Source: Terriglobia bacterium
Lineage (GTDB): Bacteria; Acidobacteriota; Terriglobia; Acidiferrales; UBA7541
Length of the DNA: 64,000 nucleotides
Reading direction: 5' to 3'
Assembly: GCA_020073605.1 (NCBI GenBank)
Contig: JAIQEW010000001.1
Coordinates: forward strand, 434,001-498,000
The notes beneath the pieces are model-generated. The model saw only the letters and a program-made list of their open reading frames with translations, was not told the DNA's origin and did not search any database. Positions 33,020 to 42,845 of this stretch are shown piece by piece (the stretch's first letter is position 1; the number at the start of each line of letters is the position of its first letter). The position numbers and the translations under genes were made by a program.

Positions 33020-33287
33020 CGGGAACATTCCTCTCGCTAGAAACGTGTGTATTGATCTCGGGCTTCCAGATACGACCTAGCGCCACCCAATCCTTGGCAC
33101 CCCTGCCGTGCAGAGACTACACAACCTTGCGCGTCACGTCCAGACTTTCGACGCGATGCGTCCTTTCGTTCGGCGCACATCCAACATACGCAAAACTCGG
33201 TCGCTTTGTTTCGTAGCGTTAGACTGCGCGTATCTCGGATAGTATGCTGTGCGCCGGCCAGGGGCACCGCAACCTTCCGGAGGCATC

Positions 33288-34118
33288 ATGACTGCGATTC
33301 GACGAGCGTGGCTTGCGACACCGATCGTCGCCTTGTTGGCGCTGGCGGGCACTCCGCTGCGCGCGCGCCCAAGTCCAAAGCAGGACTCGCCGATTGCCAA
33401 TCCGACACCCGCCGATCTCGAGCGAGGCAAGCAGACATTCGAGACAACCTGCTCGACCTGTCACGGCCTGGATGGAGGCGGCGCGATGGGCCCGAATATC
33501 CAGGGGATTCCATTCAGGTTGGGTGCCGACGCCGTGACGAATGTCATCAAGAACGGAATGAGCGGCGGGATGCCTCCCTTTTCGGCGCAATTGGACTCCA
33601 CGCAAATCCAGCAGATCGTCGGCTACCTTCTTACACTCAGCCACAAGGACACCGGCACCGTGACCGGCGATGCGGCGAAGGGCAAGGGCGTCTACGACTC
33701 AAGCGGCTGCGCCGGCTGCCACATTGTTTCAGGCCTGGGCAGCGGCATCGGTCCTGAACTTACGAAGGTAGGCCATCTGCGCGGACCCGGCTACCTGCGC
33801 AACGCGGTGTTGTATCCGGGCACGGATTTGCCGCAAGCGCGGGTTTTCTTGGAATCCGGAGGACTGCTTGATTACTTGTTCATCCACGCCGTTACCAACG
33901 ACGGCCACGCGTTCGACGGCACGCGCGTGGTGGAAGACTCCTTCCGGATCGTGATCAAGGACGCCCGCGGCGAGTTCCACTCCTTCCGTAAGGCCGATCT
34001 GCGCGAATTAAAGAAGGAACCGGGAAAGAGCACGATGCCGAGCATGAAAGGCAAACTCTCGGACGCGCAAGTAAATGATCTGGTCGCGTACCTTGCGGGC
34101 TTAAAAGGAGACCAATGA
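33288..34118 (+). CDS. Secreted diheme cytochrome c
   Basis: The 276-residue protein starts at ATG 33288 with CCGGAGG just upstream and has a signal peptide (WLATPIVALLALAGTPLRA). Two heme c motifs are present: CSTCH at residues 55-59, with MPPF near 95 as the likely Met-ligand region, and CAGCH at 141-145. The second half after CAGCH (GPELTKVGHLRGPGYLRNAVLYP, then AHAFDGTRVVEDSF-like and LSDAQVNDLVAYLAGLK) resembles heme-binding domains of oxidase-associated cytochromes. Its stop overlaps the start of the third PQQ dehydrogenase by four bases, so it is the likely electron acceptor for that enzyme and perhaps for the two divergent ones. Confidence 0.92.
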   Translation: MTAIRRAWLATPIVALLALAGTPLRARPSPKQDSPIANPTPADLERGKQTFETTCSTCHGLDGGGAMGPNIQGIPFRLGADAVTNVIKNGMSGGMPPFSAQLDSTQIQQIVGYLLTLSHKDTGTVTGDAAKGKGVYDSSGCAGCHIVSGLGSGIGPELTKVGHLRGPGYLRNAVLYPGTDLPQARVFLESGGLLDYLFIHAVTNDGHAFDGTRVVEDSFRIVIKDARGEFHSFRKADLRELKKEPGKSTMPSMKGKLSDAQVNDLVAYLAGLKGDQ

Positions 34119-35734
34119 GAACCATCAAGTACGCGCTGCTTTTGTTTGGTCTTCTTGTCTGGAATCCGGCGCGATCGCTCGCACAGAATGTGCCCTACGA
34201 GCGCATTTTGCACTCGCAAAGCGAGCCCCAGAGCTGGCTGACGTACGGCGGGAGCTACTCCTCGCAGCAGTATTCGCTGCTCAATCAGATCAACCGCCAG
34301 AACATCTCGAGTTTGAAGGTGGCGTGGATATACCAGCCGAGCCGGCCCGTCGCGAATCTGGAGGCATCGCCGATCGTTGTGGATGGAGTGATGTACCTCA
34401 CCGAACCGCCCAGCACCGTGACGGCCCTGGATCTTCGCACCGGACTTCGGCTGTGGAGCTGGTCGCCGAATCTTCCGGAGCACGTTGTATCAATCGGCCT
34501 GTATGCAACGAGCCGCGGCGTGGCGATTCTAGACAATACGGTCTACATCGGCACGGCCGATTCGCACCTGGTCGCGCTCGATGCGAAGAATGGCGCCGTC
34601 CGCTGGAACGTGCACGTGGCCGACAACGCCATGGGCTACGCCCTGACGGGACCGCCGCTCGCGCTAAAGGACAAGGTCATTATCGGCAGTGCCGGGAGCG
34701 AAGCCGCTGTCCGCGGATTTCTCGATGCCTACGACGCGAAGACCGGCAAACGGCTCTGGCGCTTTTGGACCACTCCCAGGCCGGGTGAACCGGGCGCGGA
34801 AACCTGGGGCGTCGGCGCCGCCGAAAGCGCCGGGGCTACCACATGGAACAATGGCTCCTACGACCCCGAACTGAATTTGGTGTACTGGGGCACGGGGAAT
34901 CCAGCTCCGGATTTCAACGACGACGACCGGCCGGGCGACAACCTCTATACCTGCTCGCTGCTGGCGCTCGATGCCGACACGGGAAAACTGAAATGGTATT
35001 TTCAGTTCTCGCCGCACGAAGACCACGACTGGGATTCGGACGAACCTCCCGTCCTGTTTAACGCCCCGATCGACGGCAAGCCGCGAAAGCTGGTCGGCTT
35101 CGCCAACCGCAACGGCTTCTACTACGTGATCGATCGCGTCACAGGGAAATTCATAACGGGCGTTCCGTTCGTGAAGCAGACATGGGCCAAAGGGCTCGAT
35201 GCCAATGGGCGCCCGATACCCGCGCCCAACCAGGAGCCGACCCTCGGGGCGGGAACCCTCGTCTACCCGAGCATAACGGGAGGCGTTGACTGGACGAGCC
35301 CCTCGTATAGTCCGCAGACGGGACTCTTCTATGTGAGCGCCCATGAAACGGGCGCGTACTTCATCAAGGGAACGGGCAAGATCGAGCCGGGGCCTCCGAA
35401 GGGAATCGTGGGTGGCGGAGGAATCCGGGCGCTCGTCGGCGAGCAATCGTATGGCGCAATTCGCGCTCTCGACGCGACGACGGGAAAATTGCGATGGCAG
35501 TTCAAGCTGCTGGCTCCGGCGTGGGTCCCCGTGCTTTCAACCGCCGGCGGTCTGGTATTCAGCGGCAGCGAGGAAGGAAACTTCTTTGCTCTCGACGCGT
35601 ATACCGGCAAACCCCTGTGGCAGTTTTTCATGGGCCACGCCGCCCGGTCCAACCCCATCAGCTATGAATTGGACGGCAAGCAGTACATTTTCATCACGGC
35701 CGGCAACACATACCTAGCGTTCACCCTACCGTAG
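34115..35734 (+). CDS. PQQ-dependent dehydrogenase 3, coupled to cytochrome c
   Basis: A 539-residue periplasmic quinoprotein with signal peptide (KYALLLFGLLVWNPARSLAQ). W-motifs include ALDLRTGLRLWSW, ALDAKNGAVRWN and ALDADTGKLKWYF. The catalytic region reads DHDWDSDEPP, again with Asp two residues after the catalytic Asp. Unlike its two neighbours it lacks the vicinal Cys-Cys (GLYATSRG at that position) and is about 90 residues shorter, so it belongs to a different branch. The ATG overlaps the stop of the cytochrome c gene (ATGA), indicating coupled expression. It converges on the first selenoprotein gene, 67 nt away. Confidence 0.9.
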   Translation: MRTIKYALLLFGLLVWNPARSLAQNVPYERILHSQSEPQSWLTYGGSYSSQQYSLLNQINRQNISSLKVAWIYQPSRPVANLEASPIVVDGVMYLTEPPSTVTALDLRTGLRLWSWSPNLPEHVVSIGLYATSRGVAILDNTVYIGTADSHLVALDAKNGAVRWNVHVADNAMGYALTGPPLALKDKVIIGSAGSEAAVRGFLDAYDAKTGKRLWRFWTTPRPGEPGAETWGVGAAESAGATTWNNGSYDPELNLVYWGTGNPAPDFNDDDRPGDNLYTCSLLALDADTGKLKWYFQFSPHEDHDWDSDEPPVLFNAPIDGKPRKLVGFANRNGFYYVIDRVTGKFITGVPFVKQTWAKGLDANGRPIPAPNQEPTLGAGTLVYPSITGGVDWTSPSYSPQTGLFYVSAHETGAYFIKGTGKIEPGPPKGIVGGGGIRALVGEQSYGAIRALDATTGKLRWQFKLLAPAWVPVLSTAGGLVFSGSEEGNFFALDAYTGKPLWQFFMGHAARSNPISYELDGKQYIFITAGNTYLAFTLP

Positions 35735-35801: not shown

Positions 35802-37568
35802 CTACATCCACTTGTCGATCGAGACGCTGACTCCGTAGCTTAAGCACCCGCACTGGAAGAACGCGTTCGTCTGCCCGCCTACAACCACGACATTGATGTC
35901 GTCCAGGTGAGGCCAGCGCGGGATCATCGCGTCATCGGGCATCTTGTACCACGTCGCATAAGGCTCAAGGCCCTTGAGCGATCGCGGGTAGTCAAACCCG
36001 TATGCAAAGTCCCGACCCTTGTAATCCTTCACGGACTGAGTCGTGTTCTTGTAGAGCCAGTCGATGAGCTTCTCCTTTGTGTCGTAGCCGCGCTCATGCA
36101 GGCTCTGCGCGATCAGCGGATCGGCAACCACCAGCCCGCCGAAGAATCCAGTGAATACGCTGAAGAGGTCGCTGAACTGCTCCTCGTATTTTGGCGTGTC
36201 CGTGCTGGTTCCTCTGGCGCCCTGGCCCGGCACGATACCCAGCCCGCGAAACAGGCTGACCACGTTCTCCCCTGCCTTGAATCCCTTTTGCACGTGGAAA
36301 GGAGCCCAGGGGCTCGCGGCTTCATTTTCCGCGATGATTAGATTGTTGTAGTTGAGGTTGTTTCCCTGCGATCCCATATACGTGTCGCCGGGGATGCCGC
36401 CATTGGCGAGGTTCTTCGAAAGCAGCGTCCACGCGCGCCCGATCGTGGCGTTGGGGTGCGCGAACGGTCCCAGGGCGCCGATGCCGTAGTTCATGTCCAG
36501 CTTGTCGCGGATCGGCCCGTTGATCACCGCCGCGTATGCGAACGAGTTCGTGGAGCTCATTAGCGACGGCGTGCCGGACGATGCGATGGCTAGAATTGTG
36601 GGGAAGTATTCGGGCTTGCATCCGGCCATCACCGCGTTGATGGCCACCTGCTTTACGTTGTATTCCCACGGCGGGTACGCACCCCCGGCCATTTTCCCGA
36701 CCAGTTCATCCGGCTTGTGGCTCGTGCCCGCAAGCATCTCCGTGACCAGTTCCTCGGTCGGGACCACGATCGGCAGGAAATCAGTCATTCCATTGTCGGT
36801 GTAAAACTGCTGGAGGTTGCGTGCGGTGTCCGGCCCATATTTCTCCGGCCCGACCGACACGCGGACCATCCCTGTCTTCTTCTCGTCGTCCGTGAGCGGC
36901 AGGGTCAGCGCATCGACGATTTCCTTCATCATCGGCTTGCCGCTGACGGGATCGTTTCCTTCAACGTACGCGCGGAGCTGCTCGGGAGTCTTTGATGCCA
37001 CGGGATGAGGGGTGAAGGTGATGCGCTCGTGCGGCATGCCCCGCTTCGCCACGTTCAGGATCGCCAGATCCTTGAACGCCTTGGTGACAAGGGGAGTGGT
37101 CGGAACGCCCAGCTTTTCAACGCTTATGCAGTGACCGACGGTCGCTGGAGTGCAGGTGCTTCAATGGCCGATGGCCATGATCGCCGCATGGCCCTTTTCC
37201 TTGATCTCTTTCCACAGCGCGGGATCATCCTCCGCGTACGGCCCCGCCTTTCGCTTGAAGACGACGGTAACGCTGGGCATATTTCGATTGAACCAGAGCT
37301 GGATCTGGTTCAGAAGAAATCCTCCGCCCTCGAATCCAGTGTCCACGAGATACACCGTTTTCCCGTCCAGGCTGCCGAGCCGCGGCGCCATGGGAATCAG
37401 TTGGATGGGCGGCGGTGTTCCCTTTGGATTGAGCCCCTCGATTCTCGGCTCCGCAGCGGACGCTTTCGCGGGCTTGGAACTGATCTTCTTCTGCTGAGCC
37501 TCAGCAGTGGCGCCGGCCAGAAGAGCGGGCGAGAGACCCAGGAGTGAGAGCATCTTTCTTCTGTTCAT
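35802..37568 (-). CDS. UGSC-family selenoprotein, copy A (in-frame TGA read as Sec136)
   Basis: Read through the TGA at 37161-37163, this is one 588-residue protein. ATG 37568 begins a Tat-type signal, MNRRKMLSLLGLSPALLAG, with AEAQ as possible cleavage site. A Rossmann-like UGSC domain (GKTVYLVDTGF; AAIMAIGH) is interrupted by TGA and continues without a break: STCTPATVGHC, then GVPTTPLVTKAFKDL. Sec136 and Cys139 form a UxxC redox pair at the family's [Sec/Cys]GSC position. The second half (from about residue 250) is the domain usually found with UGSC proteins, with INAVMAGCKPEYFP, NGPIRDKLDMNYGIGALGPF and AENEAASPWAPFHVQKGF. Function of the family is unknown. A conserved hairpin follows the TGA. 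Selenocysteine machinery genes are not in the window. Confidence 0.87.
37129..37147 (-). promoter_or_regulatory. Candidate bacterial SECIS hairpin, copy A
   Basis: In the mRNA, CAGCGACCGTCGGTCACTG folds as CAG/CUG, one C-A mismatch, GACC/GGUC, loop GUC. The loop starts 21 nt after the UGA and its first base is G, which fits the bacterial SECIS rules (loop 16-37 nt away, G in the first two loop bases). The same 19 bases occur in all three copies. Confidence 0.75.
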
Positions 37569-37627
37569 GGGAGCACCTTTCGCAGCAATGGATTCGCGGG
37601 GATCCTTCCTCACCCGGAACGGTCTCA

Positions 37628-37657
37628 CTTATAGCCCCGCGGGGGATGAGATTGCAA
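37628..37657 (-). promoter_or_regulatory. Candidate sigma-70-type promoter, selenoprotein copy A
   Basis: On the minus strand TTGCAA is followed after 18 bases by TATAAG, about 60 bases before the ATG at 37568. Copy C has the same two hexamers with the same spacing in a region otherwise only partly alike. Confidence 0.55.
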
Positions 37658-37736
37658 CTCGATCGGCTTGGGATGTTCCGTCACCACGCGGCGCCTCAGA
37701 GCACTGGTCGCGATCCACGGGGGCCGGAAAAACGAA

Positions 37737-37760
37737 GCCCGGAGGCCTGAGCCTCCGGGC
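37737..37760 (-). terminator. Rho-independent terminator of selenoprotein copy B
   Basis: A perfect 10-bp stem GCCCGGAGGC/GCCTCCGGGC with a 4-base loop, followed on the minus strand by TTCGTTTTT. It lies 43 bases past the stop of copy B, so copies A and B are separate transcripts. Confidence 0.85.
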
Positions 37761-37802
37761 TTTGGAATGCTTGGCTAGCGCCTGCTACCGCCGGCGATGC
37801 GC

Positions 37803-39545
37803 CTACGTCCACTTGTCGATCGAGACGCTGAGTTGGTACCTCATGTTCGCGATCTGGTGGTACGGGTTCGTCTGGCCGCCGACGACGACGAAGTTGAACA
37901 TGTCGGCGCGGGCGAAGCGCGGGATCATCGTGCCGTCCGGAATCTGCTGCCCGCGCGGAGGGCCGCTGAACAGCATGGTCTTGATGTCGTTGATGTTGAC
38001 CAGCGTGTTCTTCTGGAGCCAGTCGGCGAGATCTTCCTTGGTCTTGTAGCCGAGATCGCCGAGGCCGTTGGCGACCAGCGGATCCACGAGAACGAGCGCG
38101 CCGTACATATTCGCGAACGGCGTGGTGTTCCAACTGATCGCTTCGTGGAAGTGCGGCACCGGCTTCATGCCCAATCCCTTGCCGCCCTGGCCCTGCGAGA
38201 TGCCGAATCCCATGAAGAAGCTGACCACGCTTTCCTCTTTCTTGAAGCCTCTCTGCACGTGGAAAGGAGTCCAAGGGCTGTCCTTCTCGTTCTCCGGGAT
38301 GATGAGGTTGCTGAAGTTGACGACGTTCCCTTGCGAGCCCATGTACGTTTGTCCGCAAACTCCGCCATCGCAGAAGTTCCTGGACATGATCGTCCACGCG
38401 CGGCCGATCGAGGAGTTGGCCTGGTTGAAGGGTCCCATCGCGCCGATGCCGTAGTTCATGTTGAGCTTGTCGCGAACCGGCCCGTTGATCACTGCGGCGG
38501 AGACGAGGGAGTTCGTCGAGCTAAAGAGCGCCGATATTCCCGTCGAGGCGATTGCCAGAAGCGTGGGGAAATAGTCCGGCGTCGCTCCGGCCATCACGGC
38601 GTTGATCGCCGCATGCTTCACGGTGTACGACCACTCCGGAAAAGCGCCCTTGGCAGGAGACATCTTGCCGAGCACTTCATCGGGAGAGTGGCTGGTGCCC
38701 TTGAGCATCGCGTCCACTTTTTCTTGCGTGGGAATGATGATCGGCAGGTAATCCGTCATTCCGTTATCGAGAAAATACTGCTGCAGGTTGTCCGCCGTAT
38801 CGACGTACGTGGGCGGGCCGACGGAAGGTGTCGTCGTTCCCGATTTGCTTTCGTCGGCGGTCAGCGGACTTGTGAGCGCGTCAACAACTTCCTTCATCAG
38901 GGGCTTGCCGCTGACGGGGTCTTTGCCCTCGAGATACTCATACATTTGCGCTTCCGACTTGCCCCACACGGGATGTGGAGTGAAGCAGATGCGTTCGAGC
39001 GGCATGCCTCGCTTGGCTGCGTTTGATTTCGCCAGATCCTTGAACGCAATCGTGACCAGGGGAGCGGTCGGAATGCCCATTTTTTCGATTTCCATGCAGT
39101 GACCGACGGTCGCTGGGGTGCAGGTGCTTCAATGCCCAATCGCCATGATAACGGCGTTGCCTTTGTCTTTGATCTCCGCGCGGAGTTTGGGATCGTCGTC
39201 GCCGTATCCGCCGGCCTTGAGCCGGTAAACGGTGGTCACGCTGGGCATGTTCTTCTTGAACCAGACCGAAATCTGATTCAGGAAGAGATCGGCGCTCGGG
39301 AAGCCGTCCGAGACGAGGTACACGGTCTTGTTTTCCAGCGTGCTGAGGCGAGGCGCCATGGGGATCAGCGTGATCGGGGGCGGGATGCCTCGCGGGTTGA
39401 GCGCTTCGAGCTTCGCGGGTCCCGCGGCGGCCTTGGCGGCTTTTGCAGTCTTCGCCTTGGCCTGCTGCGCCTCGGCGGTTGCGCCAGCCAAAAGCGCCGG
39501 ACTCGCGCCGAGCAGCGATAGAATCTTTCGCCTGTTGATCTTCAT
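37803..39545 (-). CDS. UGSC-family selenoprotein, copy B (in-frame TGA read as Sec139)
   Basis: The second tandem copy, 580 residues from ATG 39545 when the TGA at 39129-39131 is read as selenocysteine. It has the Tat-type start MKINRRKILSLLGASPALLAG, an Ala/Lys-rich spacer, and the UGSC core KTVYLVSDGF, AVIMAIGH, Sec139, STCTPATVGHC, GIPTAPLVTIAFKDL. The C-terminal domain shows INAVMAGATPDYFPTLLAIAST and NGPVRDKLNMNYGIGAMGPF. It is the most divergent of the three (for example SKSEAQMYEY region and VCGQTYMGSQGN), yet the bases around the TGA are nearly identical to the others. The segments before and after the TGA are in the same frame, and no ribosome site precedes the first ATG after it. 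Confidence 0.87.
39097..39115 (-). promoter_or_regulatory. Candidate bacterial SECIS hairpin, copy B
   Basis: Identical to the hairpin of copy A (CAGCGACCGTCGGTCACTG), at the same distance from the UGA. One base just before the stem differs (ACC instead of ACT codon), outside the paired region, which suggests that the stem itself is constrained. Confidence 0.75.
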
Positions 39546-39673
39546 GAGTTTCCCTGGCTCCTTTTCGTCATTCCCGGAGATCGGATCTCTCAACGACCGG
39601 AATCATACACGAATTTCACGCGGCGACGGCTGACCTCGCCCGGGCGCACGCTCAGAAGCTAACAGCGCCTTCG

Positions 39674-39745
39674 CTACGCCCGCTTGTCAATTGAGACGCT
39701 CAGCCTATACGTCAGGTTTCCGAGTTGAGAGAACGCGTTCGCCTT
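39674..39745 (-). pseudogene. Remnant of a fourth UGSC selenoprotein gene (C-terminus only)
   Basis: On the minus strand, codons ending in TAG at 39674-39676 read NAFSQLGNLTYRLSVSIDKR plus A. This aligns with the ends of copies A-C (for example NAYPQAGNLSYGVSISIDKW in copy C). Before NAF the match fades within a few codons, and the copy C stop is only about 35 bases further on. It is therefore a truncated leftover of another tandem copy. Confidence 0.75.
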
Positions 39746-39780
39746 CCTCTGCCAATTCCTCAGCCGGAAAGAAACCTCGC

Positions 39781-41544
39781 TCACATCCACTTATCAATCG
39801 AGATGCTTACTCCATAACTTAGATTCCCGGCCTGCGGATATGCATTCGTTTGCCCGCCGGTCACCACGATGTTGAAACTCTCCGGCCTCGGGAAGTGCGG
39901 GATCACCGCATCGTCCGGCAGCTTGTACCACGTCGCAAACGGTTCTCTTCCCTGAAGCGCCTGCGGGTACTCGAACAGATAGGAATAGTTCCTGCTTTTG
40001 TAGTCTTTCACCGTCTGCGTCGTGTTCTTGTAGAGCCAGGCGATCAGCTTTTCCTTCGTGTCGTAGCCCTGCTCCTTCAGACGCACGGCCACCAGCGGAT
40101 CGGCAATGATCAGCGCACCGAAAAATCCGGTAAAAGTGCTGAAGAGATCGCTCAGCTGATAGTCGAACTGCACGTTTTCGTTGGCGCTGCTTCCCCGGGC
40201 CACTTGCCCTGGAACAACGCCGAGTCCGCGGAACAGGCTGACCACATTCTCTTCCTTCTTAAAGCCTCGCTGGACGTGGAAGGGCGGCCATGGGCTGGCC
40301 TCTTCGTTCTCCGCGATCACAACGTTGTTGTAGTTGAGATTGTTACCGAGAGAGCCCAGATACGTGTCGCCGGGAATTCCGCCGTTCCCCAGATTCTTCG
40401 AAAGCAGCGTCCACGCGCGCCCGATCGTCGCGTTCGCCTGTGCGAACGGGCCCAGCGCGCCGATTCCATAGTTGAACTCGAGCTTGTCGCGGATGGGCCC
40501 GTTGATGATCATGGCGAACGCGAAGGAATTCGTGGAGCTAAAGAGCGAAGCGACTCCGCTGGAGGCGATCGCCAGGACGATCGGGAAGTATTCCGGCCTG
40601 CATCCCGCCATTACGGCGCTCGCAGCCACTTGCCGGACCGTGTAGCTCCACGCCGGATAGGCGCCCGCCGCCATTTTGCCGACGACCTCGTCGGGTTTGT
40701 GGCTAGTGCCCTTGAGCATCGCCTCGACTTTTTCCTGCGTGGGCAGAATGATCGGGAGGAAATCGGTGTAACCGTTGTTCAGATAGAATTCCTGCAGGTT
40801 GTCCGCGGTGTCCGTAAACGTTGGCGGGCCGACGGAAACGTTGACCGTCCCCGATTTCTTCTCGTCGTCACTCAGCGGCACCGTCAGCGCGTCGGTGACT
40901 TCCTTCATCAGCGGTTTTCCGCTGACGGGATCCGGTCCATCAACGTACACGCGCAGCTCTTCGGGAGTCTTGCCCCACACCGGATGCGGCGTGAAGCAGA
41001 TGCGCTCGTGGGGCATTCCCCGTTTCGCGGCGTTCAAAATCGCGAGATCCTTGAACGCCTTCGTGATCATCGGGGCACTTGGGATGCCCATCTTTTCAGT
41101 TGTTATGCAGTGACCGACGGTCGCTGGAGTGCAGGTGCTTCAATGCCCGACGGCCATGATGACCGCGTTGCCCTTTTCCTTGATTTCCTTCCAGAGCTTC
41201 GGGTCATCTTCCGCGTAGGGGCCGGCTTTTCTCCTGAACACGACCGTGACGCTCGGCATGTTTCTGCCGAACCAGGCCTCGACCTGGTGCAGAAGCATAT
41301 CCGAGCCGTGGAATCCTGTGTCGACGAGATAGACGGTCTTGCCTTCGAGGGTGTCGAGGCGCGGCGCCATCGGTATGAGCTGTATCGGCGGTGGCGTGCC
41401 TTTGGGGTTGACGGCGGTAATCTTTCCCTGGCCGGCGTCCGGGGTAGCTGCTTTGTTGCCTGGCTTTTGTTGAGCAGTGGCGCGAGAGTCGGCCAGAAGC
41501 GCCGGGGACATCCCGAGCAAAGACAGTAACTTCCGCCTGTTCAT
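39781..41544 (-). CDS. UGSC-family selenoprotein, copy C (in-frame TGA read as Sec135)
   Basis: The third tandem copy, 587 residues from ATG 41544 with GGAAGGA about 8 nt upstream. The TGA at 41140-41142 is read as Sec135. The Tat-type signal is MNRRKLLSLLGMSPALLADS. The UGSC core is GKTVYLVDTGFHGSDMLL, AVIMAVGH, Sec, STCTPATVGHC, GIPSAPMITKAFKDL. The C-terminal domain has VMAGCRPEYFPIVLAIASSG, NGPIRDKLEFNYGIGALGPF and AENEEASPWPPFHVQRGF. It is closer to copy A than to copy B. A cysteine absent from copy A occurs in RICFTPHPVWG (also in B). It is divergent from the NTF2-like gene. Confidence 0.88.
41108..41126 (-). promoter_or_regulatory. Candidate bacterial SECIS hairpin, copy C
   Basis: Same 19 bases, same fold and same 21-nt distance from UGA to loop as in copies A and B, although sequence immediately beyond the stem (ATAACAACT here, ATGGAAATC in copy B) is not conserved. 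Confidence 0.75.
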
Positions 41545-41804: not shown

Positions 41805-42845
41805 ATGAAGAAGATCTTCCTTTCGATCGCGATAGCCCTGCTGTTCGCCTTGGCAATTCTCGATACAAAGATCGCCGCTGCGCAACCGGCTCCGCAACAA
41901 AGCCCGGCACCCGCCTGGAACGCGGCGGCCGTCAAGGAGTGCGACCGGGCGTGTCTGGTTGGGATCATGGACGGCTACATGAACGCCATCTTCAAGCATG
42001 ATCCCAAGGCTGTACCCCCGCTGGCGCTGGACGTCCGGATGACTGAAAACACCGGGCAAATGGACGTCGGCGAGGGACTGTTGTGGCGGTCGAGAGTCGA
42101 GCCGACCAGCTTCAAGATCTACGTCGCCGATCCGGTCGCTGGCCAGGTTGTCGAGCAGGCGCGATTGAAAATCCAGGGTCAGGACGCGCTGGTGGCGGTG
42201 CGCTTGAAAATCGACCGCGGCAAAATTCTGGAGATCGAGCAGCTCTGGGCTCGAAACATCGATCAGACCGCGATCCCGCTGCTGACGACGCCCCGTGAGA
42301 CGCTGGTGAACGACGTTCCCGCTTCGCAGAGGACCTCGCGAGAAGTTTTGCTTCGCGCGGCCAACTCGTATTTCGACGCGTTGGAGGGCGACGACGGCAG
42401 CATCGCGGCGTTTGCCGACGATTGCGTGCGGCATGAGAACGGCTATCAGACGGTGAACAATCCGCCGCCGGGAGGGCGGATGATGCCCGCCCCGATGCTT
42501 CCGAATCCGGACACGGAGCAGGGCAAGGCGCAACTCAAATTCAGCATGATGACGTGCAAACAGCAGATCGATAGCAAGACCTTCGCCTATATGAAGCACA
42601 TCCGTCCGCGGAGGGCGCTGATTATCGACGAACAGAAGGGATTGGTGGCGACGTTCCCGTTGTTCGTCCACGACGGGACCAAGCGCGGCGCTCCGCCGGA
42701 CGCGCCTCCGGGCATGCTGCAGAATCTGGTGACCATGGAAACCTTCGGAATCCGCGGCGGGCTGATCCACGAAGTGGAGGCATTCCCGTTCGTCACGATT
42801 CCTTACGGGCTGGGGAACGGCTGGTCGCCGGGTTCGGGCCGCTGA
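41805..42845 (+). CDS. Secreted NTF2-like (SnoaL-type) protein, unknown function
   Basis: The 346-residue protein starts at ATG 41805 after GGAGAG, with a signal peptide (KKIFLSIAIALLFALAIL, cleavage near AAAQP). The mature part looks like two cystatin/NTF2-like units: one from KECDRACLVGIMDGYMNAIFKH to about residue 155, one from EVLLRAANSYFDALEGDDGS to the end, including FADDCVRHENGYQT and RRALIIDEQKGLVATFPLFV. Such tandem units occur in fungal and bacterial secreted proteins near oxidative pathways (DUF8021-like). Enzymatic activity cannot be assigned. It diverges from selenoprotein copy C, so a link to that array is possible but unproven. Confidence 0.75.
   Translation: MKKIFLSIAIALLFALAILDTKIAAAQPAPQQSPAPAWNAAAVKECDRACLVGIMDGYMNAIFKHDPKAVPPLALDVRMTENTGQMDVGEGLLWRSRVEPTSFKIYVADPVAGQVVEQARLKIQGQDALVAVRLKIDRGKILEIEQLWARNIDQTAIPLLTTPRETLVNDVPASQRTSREVLLRAANSYFDALEGDDGSIAAFADDCVRHENGYQTVNNPPPGGRMMPAPMLPNPDTEQGKAQLKFSMMTCKQQIDSKTFAYMKHIRPRRALIIDEQKGLVATFPLFVHDGTKRGAPPDAPPGMLQNLVTMETFGIRGGLIHEVEAFPFVTIPYGLGNGWSPGSGR

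Follow-up and report, generated by a model that had tools for sequence, protein, structure and literature searches.

Three tandem UGSC-family genes with an in-frame UGA in an acidobacterial genome: predicted selenoproteins with a partner domain and a distant tie to glycine and proline reductase

Why do three neighbouring genes of a soil-type acidobacterium each carry a single TGA at the identical codon, and what might their products do? The question is raised by a 64,000-nucleotide stretch of a Terriglobia bacterium genome (GCA_020073605.1; hereafter the window), which comes from contig 21 of a 3.66-Mb assembly that is 93.6% complete. An earlier note on this DNA had claimed that the TGA encodes selenocysteine (Sec) in three tandem, exported proteins of the UGSC family. 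We verified the genes at their coordinates on the minus strand (Table 1), together with the motif GH-U-STC-TPATVGHC that is common to all three; gene 2 is 61% and gene 3 is 73% identical to gene 1. The read-through length of 588 residues that the note gave for all of them holds for gene 1, but genes 2 and 3 encode 580 and 587 residues. Mechanical open reading frame (ORF) calling splits each of the genes in two at the TGA, so such enzymes are easily overlooked. By all sequence evidence the three products are real selenoproteins, and they are probably paralogous selenoenzymes, exported in this organism, of the type of a selenium-dependent substrate reductase resembling GrdB and PrdB. A known family appears to acquire a partner subunit absent from Pfam and NCBIfam, a tie to GrdB/PrdB and a striking expansion of paralogues.

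The Sec machinery that the note had proposed to look for was found complete. SelB (369.5 bits against a cut-off of 242.25) lies on the same contig as the window, and SelA (561.7 against 267.9), SelD (369.7 against 125) and tRNA-Sec (67.5 against 47; tRNA-SeC with anticodon tca according to ARAGORN) lie on other contigs. An independent positive control is the formate dehydrogenase-N alpha gene of this genome, which scores 1351.8 bits against 814.2 when one in-frame TGA is read through and has the motif ARV-U-HGPTV. TGA stands at the Sec codon in all ten UGSC copies of the genome, the tenth being that of locus L163. Among the 144 alignment rows that reach the site, the codon is TGA in 121, TGC in 13, TGT in 3, AAC in 2, and CTG, TTA, GCC, TCA and ATG in one each; these rows belong to an unselected set of 170 that includes some duplicate contigs and of which 26 stop short of the column. 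Further loci, which partly hold the same genes, gave TGA in 47, TGC, TCG and TCC in 2 each and ACG in 1, with 2 uncovered. Cys homologues align exactly at the TGA, and within the same genus these read GHCSTC (L034) and GHCAGC (L042); in addition, a tandem trio (L171) has TGC, TGC and TGA at the site. A FastTree tree of 129 rows implies a minimum of nine changes at the site among Sec, Cys and other residues, and the Cys rows of the genus are interspersed with Sec rows at three positions (L034; L057_179 with L058; L042).

A UGA that acts as a true stop, leaving split or decayed genes or two separate proteins, would find some footing in gene 3, whose own terminator is TGA (39781-39783) so that UGA has two meanings inside one gene, and a truncated product would be compatible with the sequence. 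However, the break would have to fall at one codon in ten of ten copies of this genome, and across the 144 rows the site is TGA in 121 and a Cys codon in 16. The base-composition signal also continues in frame past the TGA, and where the partner domain described below is separately encoded, the gene boundary comes after the whole UGSC domain and not at the TGA. No clear start signal follows the TGA either: the first in-frame starts downstream are GTG at +111 in gene 1, ATG at +36 in gene 2 and ATG at +51 in gene 3, and the statement of the earlier note that no ribosome site precedes them is roughly right, the upstream bases having been judged by eye only. Decay, sequencing error, a stop codon and two proteins were rejected on codon counts, base composition and gene boundaries, and we consider a true stop extremely unlikely. 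A changed genetic code was ruled out by the TGA that ends gene 3 and by the full Sec system.

The minimum-energy fold after the UGA contains CAG.GACC-GUC-GGUC.CUG in each of genes 1-3, a hairpin resembling the selenocysteine insertion sequence (SECIS). Its conservation was measured against a null in which the protein was fixed and codons were drawn by gene usage (1000 draws), restricted to the 58 rows in which PAT or PAV follows the site: 44 Sec rows, of which 41 are distinct, and 14 Cys rows, of which 13 are distinct. Among the distinct Sec rows, pairing at the seven positions reached 84.7%, with every pair formed in 21 of 41, against 61.4% (sd 2.1) and a maximum of 68.6 in the null, so that 0 of 1000 draws reached the observed value. 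The 13 distinct Cys rows formed 44.0% of the pairs against a null of 44.5%, with all seven in 0 of 13. Thus, the hairpin is kept by synonymous choice in the Sec genes, and not in the Cys genes, of the PAT/PAV type, and the selenoprotein hallmark of a hairpin with a G/GU apical loop just after the UGA is found here by statistics over related rows. No Rfam family reached its gathering score within the window. Given the machinery, the TGA-bearing formate dehydrogenase, the TGC/TGT relatives and the hairpin kept by synonymous choice, Sec is the best reading, and we hold it to be extremely likely that the UGA is translated as such.

Several observations weigh against this reading of the family. The single-sequence folding energy of the hairpin region is ordinary (z 0.02, -0.60 and -0.20); three of the tested rows had served to define the hairpin, and the rows share ancestry, which leaves the synonymous-codon result strong without making it a formal probability; and over all 112 distinct Sec rows the hairpin pairs of the window were 59.8% formed against 45.7% in 15 Cys rows. 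In other subfamilies the RNA after the UGA may fold differently. Furthermore, the findings that the earlier note had named as refuting its claim did not turn up, with one exception: although Cys homologues do align at the site, a small number of distant paralogues carry Asn, Leu, Ala, Ser, Met or Thr there, so some members do not rely on selenium or sulfur at this place. The resolving Cys of the U-x-x-C motif is replaced by Ala beside the TGA in L117, L122 and L128, and by Tyr in the Cys copy of L058. This second Cys is kept in 95 of the 100 rows of alignment A3, which omits five rows whose Sec site holds Asn, Ser, Ala or Met (L064, L076 and three of L092) as well as L081, L122, duplicates and near-duplicates, making the invariance of its Sec column partly a matter of choice. 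As a separate observation, the paralogues fused to UGSC in L164, L167, L064, L076 and L092 carry Ser, Thr, Asn, Leu, Ala or Met at the site, and those of L092 adjoin a pyruvate-formate-lyase-like glycyl radical gene.

Membership of the UGSC family, as the earlier note had proposed, was borne out by profile: all three proteins exceed the PF24696 cut-off of 25 bits (Table 1), and each has U-S-T-C where the family has Sec/Cys-x-x-C. The NCBIfam equivalog NF041046, with a cut-off of 125 bits, was matched at 70.8, 74.3 and 79.7 bits. The approximately 370 residues that follow the UGSC domain reached no Pfam family in 17 of 17 members searched; beyond UGSC these members gave three stray Pfam matches, one member each, with E 0.017-0.084. 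The same partner domain was found as a separate, same-strand gene near six of eight stand-alone UGSC genes (L147, L116, L126, L152, L153 and L164), with the UGSC and partner matches 56-92 bases apart in five and about 950 in L164, and no partner gene was found within 1.5 kb around the stand-alone genes of L151 and L154. The eight were counted from 13 UGSC-only frames, since L023 equals L147, L042 and L044 run off the end of their loci, and L089 and L141 are apparent broken frames (the halves in L089 lie about 30 bases apart). Five separate partner proteins had no Pfam or NCBIfam match at E<=0.01, and three UGSC neighbours of partner genes (L147, L152 and L153) pass both the PF24696 and the NF041046 cut-offs. 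The partner domain as a separate gene near six of eight stand-alone UGSC genes argues for a two-component enzyme, and it is highly likely that the UGSC and partner domains form one enzyme.

Within the partner domain D261, R376 and E412 are present in 100 of 100 chosen rows. AlphaFold2 modelled the fused protein, its Sec replaced by Cys, at a predicted local distance difference test (pLDDT) score of 92.9 and a predicted template modelling (pTM) score of 0.90, and the stand-alone partner of L153 at 89.6 and 0.90. The model of the fused protein places the site between strand 127-133 and helix 138-151 of an alternating strand-helix domain. A thioredoxin fold was suggested in 2008; the model shows strands and helices in alternation with Sec between a strand and a helix, and had no good match in the PDB. 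Small Rossmann-type targets appeared further down the Foldseek list of the full model, with up to 0.54 of their own length, and a sequence search of the PDB gave no match at E<=1.

Where the chemistry might come from is suggested by a profile comparison. When 22 UGSC proteins were compared with 12 GrdB/PrdB-like proteins in hhalign, the match spanned 71 columns (probability 92.5, E 4.7e-7) and superposed both the Sec and the Cys positions of the two groups; the partner domain compared as a control with the same GrdB/PrdB profile gave probability 0.1. The NCBIfam scan of the 17 members beyond UGSC matched glycine reductase B in 6, sarcosine GrdF in 5, PrdB in 4, and betaine GrdH, the general GrdB/PrdB model and an unrelated dehydrogenase in 2 each. 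GrdB/PrdB-like proteins of Acidobacteriota have a TGA at the matching place in 12 of 13; L182 has one extra residue before the Cys, L188 is without Sec, and alignment A7 omits L184, which is close to L183. By the profile comparison, the UGSC domain and the Sec domain of GrdB/PrdB are homologues, a distant but clear tie. A side observation is that loci L175-L189, from several Acidobacteriota, hold short PrdB-like TGA genes with a motif like PV-U-P-x-C, which look like small selenoproteins.

Glycine and proline reductase attack their substrates through Sec and are recharged by thioredoxin-type thiols, and such recharging of GrdB/PrdB systems would fit a group of neighbouring genes. A TrxB-like ORF on the same strand was found in 16 of 100 neighbourhoods, mostly under proteobacterial titles, and 12 of the 16 lie within 250 bases; the CASC or CATC motif is present in all 16 proteins. 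Two of them scored 265.9 and 256.6 bits against TIGR01292, below its cut-off of 343.45. By a crude rule, the UGSC proteins of these 16 loci comprise 13 without a signal-like N-terminus and 3 with a hydrophobic stretch only. With moderate confidence we propose, by analogy, that the UGSC enzyme would work like the B component of glycine or proline reductase. The selenolate, positioned between the strand and the helix, would attack a substrate that the partner domain holds; the Cys of U-x-x-C, three positions further along, would resolve the selenium-substrate adduct; and the Se-S bond would be re-reduced by the neighbouring TrxB-like flavoprotein in relatives that have one, and by some other donor in the exported forms.

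Not everything agrees with a GrdB/PrdB-type reductase. Matches of single proteins to the GrdB/PrdB models of NCBIfam are chance-like (best E 0.0036, with strays at 0.013 and 0.019), and the window proteins did not match PF07355 (GRDB) at E up to 1. Foldseek against the PDB returned for the full model four matches at E<=0.001 with template modelling (TM) scores of 0.13-0.19, none of them a convincing relative, and for the partner none at E<=0.001, the best being fumarate hydratase at 0.016 with TM 0.27-0.32. In addition, clustering of the 100 neighbourhoods placed no TrxB-like gene near copies of the window's genus. A pyruvoyl-type partner subunit was not recognised, as the partner domain has no Pfam or NCBIfam match and no search was made for the pyruvoyl group itself. 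The proteins could instead be selenoproteins that serve as general thiol-disulfide oxidoreductases or peroxide-removing enzymes of the cell envelope, in favour of which stand U-x-x-C, a usual redox motif, and the TrxB-like neighbours. Nevertheless, the conserved partner of about 370 residues with its conserved Asp, Arg and Glu, the numerous paralogues and the catabolic-looking neighbours suggest specific substrates, and both the profile match to GrdB/PrdB and the strand-helix order of the model around Sec speak against such a role, which we regard as rather improbable.

Concerning export, genes 1 and 2 have an N-terminus of the same kind as gene 3, N-R-R-K-[MIL]-L-S followed by a hydrophobic stretch. 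Signals for twin-arginine translocation (Tat) have a motif of the type S/T-R-R-x-F-L-K and a hydrophobic stretch. Tat export as asserted in the earlier note is plausible from the two arginines and the stretch that follows, but no TAT model of Pfam or NCBIfam was matched by the window proteins at E up to 1. Among 54 rows of the window's genus, which here includes L052-L060, L085, L091 and L114 assigned by likeness, 38 have the arginine pair with the stretch, 9 the stretch alone and 7 neither; outside the genus the pair with the stretch occurs in 2 of 77 rows. These signal classes, like the ORFs in the neighbourhoods, follow home-made rules. The array copies are likely to be exported, by Tat or by the Sec secretion route.

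The array lies beside genes for a cytochrome c and a pyrroloquinoline quinone (PQQ) dehydrogenase-like beta-propeller. The nearest PQQ gene of the window is convergent with gene 1 and so is not on one transcript with it; an operon with the PQQ/cytochrome genes is not supported for the window, and only nearness holds. Over the 100 neighbourhoods, 28 PQQ-propeller ORFs were found in 17, all of them loci assigned to the window's genus. In the genome itself, 8 of 26 propeller genes (hand-merged from 50 match rows) are no more than 5 kb from a UGSC site, where uniform placement would give 0.78; the five distances tried, 0.5, 1, 2, 5 and 7 kb, gave 3, 3, 4, 8 and 8 of 26. The association is weakened by the count from the other side, since a PQQ gene lies within 5 kb at only 4 of 8 UGSC sites, and around half of the sites none occurs up to a distance of 7 kb. 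The propeller of the window also scored 553.1 bits against TIGR04528 ('acido-empty-quinoprotein group A'), below the cut-off of 650, although the genome has PqqC (330.1 bits against 240).

With a cytochrome c and PQQ propellers adjoining the array, PQQ genes enriched around UGSC sites and no reductant gene recognised nearby, the exported copies might run oxidatively and pass electrons to the neighbouring quinoprotein/cytochrome system. GrdB and PrdB, the homologues, are reductases, however, and the convergent orientation and the sites without a PQQ gene also speak against this direction, which seems quite unlikely. If the selenoenzyme acts as a reductase, nearby PQQ dehydrogenases could oxidise an alcohol to a carbonyl compound that the selenoenzyme would then cleave reductively, with the paralogues as substrate variants; this combined idea is speculative and we think it doubtful. 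At other loci, the representatives of further recurrent neighbour clusters, one per cluster, matched Pyr_redox_2, SDR, TctC, amidohydrolase and SBP_bac_5, and further ones a thiamine pyrophosphate enzyme, MmgE/PrpD, a pyruvate-formate-lyase-like protein, a PEP-utiliser and Meth_synt_2; most of these look catabolic.

A full-length alignment search found ten UGSC copies in the genome, with one TGA each. The tandem array beside a PQQ/cytochrome module, which had looked new in the earlier note, is therefore real but belongs to a ten-gene paralogue set, and loci with at least two copies occur elsewhere. The UGSC model matched in 9 of 61 genomes of the taxonomic family, all of the window's genus (9 of 15 in the genus and 0 of 46 elsewhere); eight of these nine have 9-14 copies, and one TGA was present in 87 of 91 match rows. 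SelA exceeded its cut-off in 52 of the 61 genomes, so the Sec trait itself is family-wide. A sample of the phylum gave a match in 28 of 247 genomes. Eight genomes of a second acidobacterial genus (g53) have at least 10-13 scored copies each; one-TGA rows number 20 of 36 in G167 and 16 of 19 in G302, the position of the TGA at the site having been checked in part of their loci. The best named relative among the matches listed, Acidobacteria bacterium palsa_295 (L052), is 90% identical to gene 3, and its next gene is 76% identical to gene 2; two genes of PQQ type come next, then another copy, the third. Relatives are encoded in at least 586 stretches of species-representative genomes, under many phylum names, of which 79 loci were retained; the neighbour and codon counts include contigs that seem to be present twice, from two collections (e.g., L091/L146, L057/L171 and L040/L054), so the loci are not fully independent. 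Two side observations concern these relatives: Chloroflexi contig JACPQD010000021 (L126 and L129) has a UGSC array with in-frame TGA interspersed with peptide-type solute-binding proteins, and the UGSC genes of L084 and L123, titled Klebsiella pneumoniae and Bordetella parapertussis metagenome-assembled genomes, have environmental nearest kin, so the titles may be misassigned.

Many, probably exported copies with selenium and Cys close together might also serve non-catalytic binding or storage of selenium or metal. A single Sec per approximately 590 residues, the repeated replacement of Sec by Cys (or the reverse) and the enzyme-like conserved polar residues argue against storage, which we consider very improbable. 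For the enzyme reading in its widest form, UGSC would be the selenium subunit of unrecognised, widespread two-component reductases, paired with a substrate domain whose fold has not been seen before, and Acidobacteriota would hold a radiation of ten to twenty, often exported, enzymes per genome that act with PQQ dehydrogenases in an envelope pathway for soil organics that oxidises and then cleaves; we put this forward tentatively, as a possibility more doubtful than the reductase assignment itself.

Table 1. Positions of the array, its parts and the neighbouring features discussed in the text.
Feature	Position	Strand	Basis or remark
Gene 1, UGSC-fused selenoprotein, 588 residues	35802..37568	-	read-through ORF; PF24696 86.4 bits
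Gene 2, UGSC-fused selenoprotein, 580 residues	37803..39545	-	read-through ORF; PF24696 83.9 bits
Gene 3, UGSC-fused selenoprotein, 587 residues	39781..41544	-	read-through ORF; PF24696 95 bits
Gene 1, predicted Sec codon UGA, residue 136	37161..37163	-	sequence
Gene 2, predicted Sec codon UGA	39129..39131	-	sequence
Gene 3, predicted Sec codon UGA, residue 135	41140..41142	-	sequence
Gene 1, SECIS-like hairpin, apical loop GUC, 7 pairs and a 1x1 mismatch	37129..37147	-	fold and synonymous-codon test
Gene 2, SECIS-like hairpin	39097..39115	-	fold and synonymous-codon test
Gene 3, SECIS-like hairpin	41108..41126	-	fold and synonymous-codon test
Gene 1, UGSC domain, residues 48-203	36960..37427	-	PF24696
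Gene 2, UGSC domain, residues 50-202	38940..39398	-	PF24696
Gene 3, UGSC domain, residues 46-199	40948..41409	-	PF24696
Gene 1, unnamed partner domain, boundary approximate	35805..36923	-	alignment to gene 3
Gene 2, unnamed partner domain, boundary approximate	37806..38909	-	alignment to gene 3
Gene 3, unnamed partner domain, residues 215-587, boundary set by choice	39784..40902	-	
Gene 3, signal-peptide-like N-terminus (MNRRKLLSLLG...)	41470..41544	-	sequence, crude scan
Cytochrome c, context	33249..34118	+	PF13442 90.6 bits
PQQ-dehydrogenase-like beta-propeller, context	34115..35734	+	PF01011 306.5 bits; TIGR03075 523.2 against 480.05
Formate dehydrogenase-N alpha with in-frame TGA	L134 12001-15258 (own genome, contig 7)		adjoins a UGSC gene and a PQQ-type gene

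On the other side of the array, positions 41805-42845 (plus strand) encode an exported-looking protein with a DRACL motif, for which neither Pfam (at 1e-5) nor NCBIfam (at 1e-10) gave a match. Among 110 loci, its relatives occur close to other UGSC genes in 8 more (L148, L131, L140, L163, L144, L133, L068 and, weakly, L103).

UGSC is a selenoprotein family found by bioinformatics (PMC13188914, PMC9312934) and was among the commonest selenoprotein families in a marine metagenome survey of 2008, where no function is given in the portion available (PMC2398784). This long-known, functionally obscure family gains a partner and a testable chemistry, and the partner domain, the GrdB/PrdB tie, the TrxB-like neighbours and the paralogue sets offer concrete routes to its substrate. 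The largest bacterial selenoprotein sets named in the available parts of two surveys comprise 39 and 46 genes (PMC5029168, PMC12013277); one Acidobacteriota genome shown in the latter has 3 selenoprotein genes, and anaerobes make up more than three quarters of the selenoprotein-rich bacteria in the former. Here, a single family contributes ten selenoprotein genes, and the acidobacterium that carries them has PQQ synthesis and PQQ-type dehydrogenases, traits that would suggest a respiring aerobe. In the open-licence literature, as far as available, the acidobacterial UGSC expansion, the partner subunit and the GrdB/PrdB link were not found described, and they may be published elsewhere.

Four known systems invite comparison. 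Formate dehydrogenase-N of the same genome is likewise a selenoprotein with a signal-like start containing two arginines, and adjoins a UGSC gene, but belongs to a protein family unrelated to UGSC. The UGSC/Unknown_1 protein of the Global Ocean Sampling metagenomes (PMC2398784), in which UGSC is joined to a conserved domain without a name, shares the fusion, as compared by description only; the available part of that account does not mention export, gene neighbours, split genes or paralogue sets. GrdB/PrdB (PF07355) shares with UGSC a homologous Sec domain, U-x-x-C and an E..GIP segment after Sec, and differs in that the partner domain here is unlike the GrdB/PrdB profile and matches no known family. 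The UGSC family itself (PF24696/NF041046) shares the same domain, Sec or Cys at the same place and U-x-x-C, whereas the proteins described here fall below the NF041046 cut-off, have a fused partner domain, a signal-like N-terminus and U-S-T-C instead of U-G-S-C, and are multiplied to ten genes.

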